Shown here piece after piece: positions 43,968 through 46,170 of a DNA stretch of 46,413 bases (its first letter is position 1; every line of letters begins with the position of its first letter). The translations under genes and the position numbers were made by a program. The notes under the pieces were generated by a model, which did not search any database, was not told where the DNA came from, and saw nothing but the letters and a program-made list of their open reading frames with translations. This stretch comes from Candidatus Woesearchaeota archaeon (GTDB taxonomy: Archaea > Nanobdellota > Nanobdellia > SCGC-AAA011-G17 > UBA489), in assembly GCA_018655015.1 (NCBI GenBank), contig JABIKK010000011.1, forward strand, positions 65,323-111,735. Reading direction: 5' to 3'.

Positions 43968-44489
43968 ATGGTAAAAATAAAAGATAGATTTGCAAGAACC
44001 CTGCCAATGATTCTCCAAGATGGTGTAACGCTTGCTGATGGAAGCAATAGCTCAGTGTTAGTTGATGTTCTTAAAGCTGATGAAATCTATAGTCGATCTG
44101 TAGAAACAGTTATGGGCCATGGGGAAGTTTTTGTTAATGGCCGGTGGGTACCACTAAAAAAGAACTTGGAAGGTAAAACAAGGTACGTTGAGGCAAAACA
44201 ACATGTAAGGTCTGTTGAAGGTCTTTCTGATCCGATTGTTAATGCAGTGGTTCACTTAAAGGATCATCACTACGATATTCTAAGAATGAATTCTGATTCT
44301 ATATCTTTGGGCAGAGATTATAGGCGTACAATAGGGTTACTTCAAGAATCAGGAGTGGTAAGGCCCTTTGAACATGTAAAGGGTTTAGGTGCAGAAGATA
44401 CTGCAGATGTGATGGGTCATCTTGCAATAGAAAACGCCATTGTTGGAGCGATTGCATTAAAACTAAAATATGACAAAGCCGTTGATTAA
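43968..44489 (+). CDS. Hypothetical soluble protein, unknown family
   Basis: 173-aa ORF with TATA-like element upstream; convergent 4-nt overlap with the next gene. Confidence 0.75.
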   Translation: MVKIKDRFARTLPMILQDGVTLADGSNSSVLVDVLKADEIYSRSVETVMGHGEVFVNGRWVPLKKNLEGKTRYVEAKQHVRSVEGLSDPIVNAVVHLKDHHYDILRMNSDSISLGRDYRRTIGLLQESGVVRPFEHVKGLGAEDTADVMGHLAIENAIVGAIALKLKYDKAVD

Positions 44490-44908
44490 AGCCCTTTCAT
44501 TTTTTTAGTAACGTTAATTTTTGCCTTGCATTTTTTACATTCGAACTGTAATGCTTTAGCATAAACCTTTTTTCCTGTTTTTTCATTGATGATTGGAACA
44601 TTCTTTCTTTTGTAAGGAATTTCTATTTCATCTTTGTGTGAACATTCTGGACAGGTGTAAATAATGCATGCAGTTAATGTTTCTTCGTGTGCTTTCTTTT
44701 CTTCTGAATGTTTGCATGAAGGACAGACATACTCTGTTGCACGTATTTTTGGCTTTCCAGTCTTTGGATCTCTGGGTTTGCCCATTTTGTCATTTTTACA
44801 TTCCGGACACTTTGCTTTGAAAACCCAAGATTTAACTTTTCCAGAACCCATTGTTCTGTTTGTAAAATAAATACATTCGTCCATAGAATTTGGTTGTTTT
44901 ATTGCCAT
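44486..44908 (-). CDS. Multi-zinc-ribbon protein
   Basis: Four paired Cys knuckles: CPECKNDK, CPSCKHSE, CPECSHKD, CKKCKAKI. Confidence 0.75.
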   Translation of the reverse strand: MAIKQPNSMDECIYFTNRTMGSGKVKSWVFKAKCPECKNDKMGKPRDPKTGKPKIRATEYVCPSCKHSEEKKAHEETLTACIIYTCPECSHKDEIEIPYKRKNVPIINEKTGKKVYAKALQFECKKCKAKINVTKKMKGL

Positions 44909-44971: not shown

Positions 44972-45508
44972 TTATGCAACTAACGATTCGGGTAAGACTT
45001 TTCTCAACTTTTTTCTTATTCTGTAGCCCACTTGTTTAGCTGCCTGTGTTTTCAAACCACGGGAATTACCAATTGTTTCATAGGACATATATCTGAAATA
45101 GTGATCTTGGATTAAAGTCCTATCTTCTAATGTTAGTACGTCTAATGCAGAGTTTAGCATCTCACTAGCTTCGGCTTCTTCAGGAGTAATGTTTGGTTCA
45201 CTTGTATCTTGAAACCATTCTGGATTATTTAATGAGGGGGTTCTTTTGAGAATACCTCTTTTCATATATGCTACAAAAGTATTTCTTGCAGTGGTAACTA
45301 CATAACCACTTATTCTTTCTCTGAATAAATCTCTTTTTTTACTAATATTCAAAACTCGCAATACTGTTTCTTGGACAATGTCATCAATTACATTTCGATC
45401 TTTATATCCCTTTGACCTCACATAGAATTCAACAGTGGTTGTTAATTTTTTTAATGTACTCACGAGATAATCTTCAACTTCTCCTTGAGACATAGGGGAT
45501 CTTTTCAC
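44972..45508 (-). CDS. Sigma-70 (ECF-like) family protein, divergent
   Basis: Region 2-like NVIDDIVQETVLRVLN...ISGYVVTTARNTFVAYMKR; region 4-like ALDVLTLEDRTLIQDHYFRYMSYETIGNSRGLKTQAAKQVGYRIRKKLRK; GTG 45508 or ATG 45493 start. Confidence 0.78.
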   Translation of the reverse strand: MKRSPMSQGEVEDYLVSTLKKLTTTVEFYVRSKGYKDRNVIDDIVQETVLRVLNISKKRDLFRERISGYVVTTARNTFVAYMKRGILKRTPSLNNPEWFQDTSEPNITPEEAEASEMLNSALDVLTLEDRTLIQDHYFRYMSYETIGNSRGLKTQAAKQVGYRIRKKLRKVLPESLVA

Positions 45509-45532
45509 TAGTTTATTCTGATTCGATGTCTT

Positions 45533-46027
45533 TTAAACTTTTTCAAAATTACCTCGAATTTCGAGATATCTTTCCCTTAAACGGTTTTTTGCACGATGAA
45601 GTCTTTGTCTAGTGTTTGGAATTGAGAGGTTTAGTTTTTTTGCAATTTCTGATTGAGGAATTCCTTGGTTGAAGTATAGGTCTATAATTACACCATAATC
45701 TTTGGGCAATCTTTCAAAGCTTTTGTTAATTAGTTCGGATTCCTGAAGATTTATTCCCTGAGAGATATCTGGAGCACATAATCCCTCTAACGAAGAACCA
45801 TGTAATCTTTTTGTCCTATGCCAATCTACTAGGGCATTGGATGTAATTCTTGCTACCCAGTTTTCCGGATTTTTTACTTGAATACCTTGTGCCAATGAAC
45901 TGTAAACTTTTAAAAAAACATTTTGGAAAACATCATCTGCGTCAAAAGGAGATCCCAGCCTACTGACTATTCTTGCGTAGGTGTTGTCTTTATGATTGTG
46001 ATATACTTCCTCAAATGATAAACTCAT
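45533..46027 (-). CDS. Sigma-70 (ECF) family RNA polymerase sigma factor-like protein
   Basis: Region 2 FDADDVFQNVFLKVYSSL...NPENWVARITSNALVDWHR; region 4 FERLPKDYGVIIDLYFNQGIPQSEIAKKLNLSIPNTRQRLHRAKNRLRE. Confidence 0.9.
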   Translation of the reverse strand: MSLSFEEVYHNHKDNTYARIVSRLGSPFDADDVFQNVFLKVYSSLAQGIQVKNPENWVARITSNALVDWHRTKRLHGSSLEGLCAPDISQGINLQESELINKSFERLPKDYGVIIDLYFNQGIPQSEIAKKLNLSIPNTRQRLHRAKNRLRERYLEIRGNFEKV

Positions 46028-46095
46028 AATTGAGAATCATCTTTAAATTTAAAACAAGTTATTTAGAAAAAGCTGAAATGTTTATGGAAAAGAAG

Positions 46096-46170
46096 CGCTC
46101 CCTCTGGGATTTGAACCCAGGTTCATGCCGTGAGAGGGCATAGTGATTGACCGGACTACACTAAAGGAGC
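46096..46170 (-). tRNA. tRNA-Glu (anticodon CTC)
   Basis: Reverse complement GCTCCTT...ATGCC-CT-CTC-AC-GGCAT...CTGGG-TTCAAAT-CCCAG...AGGGAGC-G. Confidence 0.95.

Follow-up and report, generated by a model that had tools for sequence, protein, structure and literature searches.

What do two genes for ECF-type sigma factor-like proteins do in an archaeon that possesses an archaeal RNA polymerase? Transcription initiation is generally regarded as having been solved twice, separately, once with sigma and once with TBP/TFB; a sigma protein that functioned on an archaeal RNA polymerase would mean that the two systems can mix, which would bear on their divergence. The question is raised by a 46,413-nucleotide stretch of DNA (the window) from a Candidatus Woesearchaeota archaeon, in which the first-pass annotation had reported two ECF sigma-like proteins at 44972-46027. 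Both open reading frames, P0002 and the downstream P0001, were found at exactly these positions, arranged head to tail on the minus strand with a spacer of 24 bp (Table 1).

That sigma genes occur in archaea is not new by itself, as had already been suspected. The first archaeal sigma factors are attributed to Rinke et al. 2013 in PMC6126073, and a report from 2021 (PMC8204110) describes, in the portion available, sigma-70 genes (fam00359) in DPANN archaea, prevalent in Woesearchaeota and with no anti-sigma factors seen. Functional work on archaeal sigma genes was not found in a literature search with limited coverage of subscription journals. Known already are the sigma genes in this group. 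New are a probable two-lineage pair, a cassette between tRNA-Glu and Zn-ribbon genes that abut in sigma-less sisters, TATA-like boxes at the usual -30/-27 position, and an Rpo1 that lacks R275, E295 and A302 regardless of sigma.

Table 1 Features of the sigma cassette and its borders, in positions of the window
Feature	Position	Strand	Basis
P0002, ECF sigma-like, 164 aa, upstream gene of the pair	45533..46027	-	TIGR02937, Pfam, PDB sequence matches, AlphaFold, Foldseek
P0001, ECF sigma-like, 178 aa, GTG start, downstream gene of the pair	44972..45508	-	TIGR02937, AlphaFold, Foldseek
Region 2.2 core of P0002, residues 29-40 DADDVFQNVFLK, RNA-polymerase-facing D-x-x-Q	45908..45943	-	residue conservation
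Region 4 helix-turn-helix of P0002, residues 102-152	45572..45724	-	Pfam Sigma70_r4_2
Region 2 of P0001, residues 35-84, D43 and Q46 retained	45257..45406	-	Pfam r2 slightly below cut-off; alignment
Region 4 of P0001, residues 121-170	44999..45148	-	Pfam r4 slightly below cut-off
Conserved upstream block, tRNA-Glu to P0002	46028..46094	-	G004 alignment
TATA-like box TTTTAAA, -27 from P0002 start, same position in G004	46048..46054	-	
TATA-like box TTTAAA, -29 from P0001 GTG start, overlaps P0002 stop codon	45532..45537	-	
tRNA-Glu(CTC), cassette border	46095..46170	-	ARAGORN
Zn-ribbon protein, 140 aa, other cassette border	44486..44908	-	homologues in relatives

Two ECF-type proteins in an archaeal genome

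P0001 and P0002 are full-length, two-domain ECF-type sigma-70-like proteins. Against TIGR02937, the full-length model of the sigma70-ECF superfamily with a cut-off of 42.9 bits, P0002 reached 75.9 bits and P0001 54.8 bits. The Pfam check on regions 2 and 4 was positive for P0002 (Sigma70_r2, 34.1 bits; Sigma70_r4_2, 36.5 bits; both above cut-off), but P0001 stayed slightly below for both (r2, 21.7 bits; r4, 22.6 bits). Since Sigma70_r4 also gives 22.2 bits for the archaeon's TFB, about as much as for P0001, the r4 score of the latter is not decisive, and its membership in the ECF family is settled by the full-length score. The search of the archaeon's own genome returned these two proteins and no other sigma matches. 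None of the equivalog cut-offs was reached (SigZ model, 75 bits versus 168.7 bits needed).

The PDB sequence matches were solved ECF factors, SigE, SigW and SigH in the case of P0002. AlphaFold models of both proteins (mean pLDDT 89.5 for P0002 and 84 for P0001) predict the same ECF layout: region 2 with three helices and region 4 with four, connected by a disordered linker of low confidence (residues 80-91 in P0002, 91-102 in P0001), and no region 3. Foldseek returned sigma factors as top matches of P0002 (ECF sigma chains, E 5e-7) and M. tuberculosis SigL at rank 1 for P0001 (E 7e-5); the whole-chain TM values are low (0.34-0.47) because the domain orientation differs between structures. Over a short aligned stretch, region 4 of P0002 matched the crystal structure of sigmaE region 4 with -35 DNA at a target-normalised TM of 0.79-0.83. 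The layout of region 2 and region 4 originally proposed for both proteins is thus borne out by TIGR02937, with which AlphaFold and Foldseek agree.

The host genome (700 kb, 92.5% complete, 0.6% contaminated) carries the window within a 177-kb contig that is archaeal on both sides of the pair: the left flank comprises a histone gene and the uL3 operon, the right flank tRNAs, MetRS and TFB. Archaeal genes continue outside the window, TBP is encoded on the same contig, and the GC content is unchanged. The histone gene lies about 1.1 kb and uL3 1.5-2.6 kb from the pair, in agreement with the distances first given. A single archaeal Rpo1 accounts for the RNA polymerase large-subunit matches in the genome.

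The Zn-ribbon protein at the border of the cassette has abundant Cys-x-x-Cys pairs, reaches the cut-off of no curated family and adjoins the histone gene throughout the family. As its homologues (53-86% identical in seven of the eight genus/family genomes searched) are conserved in sigma-less genomes as well, it does not qualify as a partner specific to sigma. Between the histone and Zn-ribbon genes lies an orphan of 173 aa (43968-44489, plus strand) with no Pfam or NCBIfam match; its counterparts at the same place, of 146 aa in G004, a second MAG of the genus (30% identical), and of 122 aa in the genus members G001 and G002, show it to be fast-evolving at a fixed position. The MetRS by the sigma cassette (L036 2682-4115) is common to G004 (85%) and to G005 and G006 (46-47%), with only about 33% in G001 and G002; judging by these identities, a MetRS replacement within the genus is possible.

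Relatives, origin and constraint

An orthologue of P0002 with 35% identity was found at the equivalent locus of G004, where a single contig holds the Zn-ribbon gene on one side and tRNA-Glu, tRNA-Gln and metG on the other; P0001 is absent from this locus, and about 47 bp separate the sigma gene from the Zn-ribbon gene. A third P0002-like copy, in G003, is located between TFB and a ribosomal-protein gene (read as S8e). G001 (98% complete) and G002 (95%) contain no sigma gene above cut-off, and there the Zn-ribbon gene directly follows tRNA-Glu. Judged by this junction, the cassette appears to have been inserted at, or cleanly lost from, the 3' flank of tRNA-Glu. An integrative element was rejected, since a search of the tRNA site for an att-like repeat found none.

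In the phylogenetic tree, P0002 grouped with the copies of G004 and G003 (support 97/86) and P0001 with ECF proteins of G005 and G007 from the same family (96/86), and a BLAST comparison of P0001 with P0002 gave no match. These groupings and the absent match suggest that the pair probably joins two separate ECF lineages already present in the family; a recent tandem duplication was rejected on the same grounds. As the branches are long, a common origin of the pair (P0001 and P0002 together, p-AU 0.12) and a single origin of all archaeal ECF rows (p-AU 0.16) are still tenable, neither having been rejected in topology tests. A viral origin was rejected, since viral contigs held no relatives of either protein and phage records none of P0001. 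Plasmid matches were rhizobial ECF-like genes of about 28-30% identity, and no close relative of the pair was found within any particular bacterial lineage.

Between the host and G004, the Zn-ribbon, histone and uL3 proteins are mostly 85-94% identical, compared with the 35% of the sigma proteins. The coding DNA of P0002 is 53% identical, with 58% at codon positions 1 and 2 and 41% at position 3, which indicates that the protein was kept as third positions drifted. In the upstream block, 51 of the 69 aligned columns are identical (about 68 bp, 74%), and this block reaches past the TATA-like box. Given the codon-position contrast and the upstream identity, both the protein and its regulatory DNA look constrained. 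The core upstream motif has a single exact copy (0 mismatches) in the host genome and one in G004; as the motif search found no further copy in the host genome, no regulon is seen, and its uniqueness hints at self-regulation or a simple promoter and not at a large regulon. An ECF-like -10 was not noticed in the upstream region by eye. Across 73 open reading frames on this contig, upstream TATA-like hexamers are most frequent at -30 to -27, a pattern also seen in leaderless archaeal genes. The boxes of the sigma genes lie at this usual position, from which we infer that these genes are themselves read by TBP/TFB.

Within the order, Sigma70_r2 matches occur in 50 of 103 genomes, and TIGR02937 exceeded its cut-off in 134 of the 371 genomes of a phylum sample, with all archaeal control genomes below. 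Many sigma proteins of the phylum are larger (about 270-450 aa) and carry near-canonical DLIQEGNLGL and TRERIRQIE motifs. Besides P0001/P0002, the phylum sample contains seven side-by-side sigma pairs less than 1 kb apart; the open reading frames of such pairs were read directly in G254, G149, G184, G102 and G031. Adjacent pairs (L069, L061, L065, L025, L010) are mostly of the larger type, and in them one partner could modulate the other. Clustering of neighbours across the order revealed no widely common partner gene beside sigma genes. A cyclophilin-type peptidyl-prolyl isomerase, as judged by sequence, lies beside or near sigma in three genomes of different families (L042 7252-8720, L045 7880-9024, L011 2719-3210). 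In genus g2 (L040 6426-8270, L041 6872-8722), sigma is followed about 90 bp on, on the same strand, by a conserved protein of about 400 aa whose N-terminus contains a hydrophobic segment and which matches no Pfam family, possibly as a sigma/surface-protein operon.

The RNA polymerase side and modes of action

Region 2.2 is the best-conserved part of P0002. Among three archaeal orthologues, 8 of the 12 residues of its core are invariant, compared with only about a quarter of region 4, and D29, A30, D32, F34 and Q35 do not vary in 41 archaeal and bacterial sequences. The Asn aligned with N80 of E. coli RpoE, the residue that reads the -10 element, is retained as N64 in P0002 and N76 in P0001.

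In the beta' coiled-coil of E. coli, the changes R275Q, E295K and A302D lead to deficient holoenzyme formation (PMC8321222). The equivalents of R275, E295 and A302 are I, L and H in the Rpo1 of the host and of the relatives aligned, so that none of these three bacterial sigma-docking residues is present, and the coiled-coil is nearly identical in genomes with and without sigma genes. A co-adaptation of Rpo1 to sigma was therefore rejected, as the polymerase shows no visible adaptation. For the earlier suggestion that the proteins bind the Rpo1 clamp coiled-coil, the evidence is mixed: the D-x-x-Q of region 2.2 is the best-conserved part on the sigma side, but on the polymerase side Rpo1 is without the three essential bacterial residues and unvarying. 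The sigma proteins either dock via other contacts or act as DNA-binding regulators without docking. In our judgement, though this is no proof, the strong conservation of region 2.2 favours docking. A search for anti-sigma factors of the zf-HC2 type gave no match in the genome; some ECF factors are without an anti-sigma factor.

Our tentative explanation is that the archaeon has retained the pair as transcription factors derived from sigma, which act with the cell's archaeal RNA polymerase by way of a changed interface. The genes have been inherited within the archaeon's lineage, their products probably still working with its archaeal transcription machinery. This explanation starts from two-domain ECF-type proteins, a positional orthologue of P0002 and a host with TBP, TFB and a solely archaeal RNA polymerase. 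We favour it because of the family match and fold, the G004 and G003 copies, the codon-position constraint, the conservation of region 2.2, the retained Asn, the presence of TBP, TFB and Rpo1, and the TATA-like boxes at -27/-29. P0001 and P0002 would be transcribed from ordinary TBP/TFB promoters, and region 4 together with region 2.3-2.4 would still bind DNA. Region 2.2 would still dock on RNA polymerase, with the Rpo1 clamp helices as its most likely site and an interface unlike the bacterial one, and at a few promoters the pair may serve as initiation factors, either auxiliary or alternative. The I, L and H of Rpo1 without co-adaptation, the unique upstream motif and the missing zf-HC2 anti-sigma factor count against this explanation.

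A close rival, and a possible one, is that the proteins were repurposed as DNA-binding regulators, whose region 4 binds DNA and modulates TBP/TFB promoters, perhaps their own, with no docking on RNA polymerase. An Rpo1 without the bacterial docking residues, invariant with respect to sigma presence, would agree with this, as would the retained helix-turn-helix and an upstream block that reaches past the TATA-like box and is confined to the sigma locus, as for a self-regulated gene; yet the polymerase-binding face in region 2.2 is conserved more than the helix-turn-helix. Without polymerase contact, sigma factors would have become ordinary regulators in DPANN archaea. We regard it as rather unlikely that the proteins are true sigma factors, serving as alternative initiation factors for the archaeal RNA polymerase beside TBP/TFB, with a re-engineered clamp interface, in about one third of the phylum; archaea would then have a second, bacterial-style initiation system. 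As the sigma side is conserved and the polymerase side unchanged, the question can be reduced to one concrete binding experiment.

It is improbable that the genes are passengers, i.e. bacterial sigma genes that arrived by horizontal transfer beside a tRNA and have, expressed or not, no selected function. Their patchy distribution in the order, with none above cut-off in two near-complete genomes of the genus, the lack of a P0001 equivalent at the G004 locus, the position at the tRNA 3' flank and the fast change of the orthologues relative to their neighbours would suit such an origin; the intact frames, the functional residues and upstream DNA conserved across a long divergence, and the site without an att-like repeat speak against it. 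Very improbable is a role in a bacterial partner, whose RNA polymerase the proteins would reach by export or cell fusion; for the first-pass idea of an action on a partner's RNA polymerase no support was found. The proteins resemble bacterial ECF factors and their D-x-x-Q fits the bacterial beta' subunit, but neither has an N-terminal hydrophobic segment evident by eye, no secretion genes were recognised adjoining the pair, and a close relative in a particular bacterial lineage is lacking. Finally, bacterial-type genes in an archaeal genome are a classic sign of mis-binning, but an assembly or binning chimera is refuted for practical purposes by the identical gene order (Zn-ribbon, sigma, tRNAs and metG) on one contig of the independent MAG G004, and the contig, archaeal on both flanks, unchanged in GC and without a breakpoint, is genuinely archaeal as had been supposed.

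Comparison with known systems

With ECF sigma factors (group 4 sigma-70; SigZ, SigW, SigE, RpoE), the pair shares the length, the order of region 2, linker and region 4, the D-x-x-Q of region 2.2, the Asn aligned with RpoE N80, the helix-turn-helix, and full-length profile and structure matches. It differs in that P0001 and P0002 stay below every equivalog cut-off, the sole RNA polymerase of the host genome is archaeal, and no zf-HC2 anti-sigma factor was found. The DPANN sigma-70 genes (PMC8204110) are, as far as the available portion of that report goes, of the same gene kind, from the same archaeal group and likewise without an anti-sigma factor seen, whereas the locus, the pairing, the common upstream block and the Rpo1 side are not treated in that portion. 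Archaeal TFB (PF00382) shares a weak Sigma70_r4-like score (22.2 bits). TFB binds promoter DNA and RNA polymerase. Unlike the sigma-like pair, it consists of TFIIB cyclin repeats and a Zn ribbon and has a gene of its own, at a distance of about 7 kb (L036 9468-10400).
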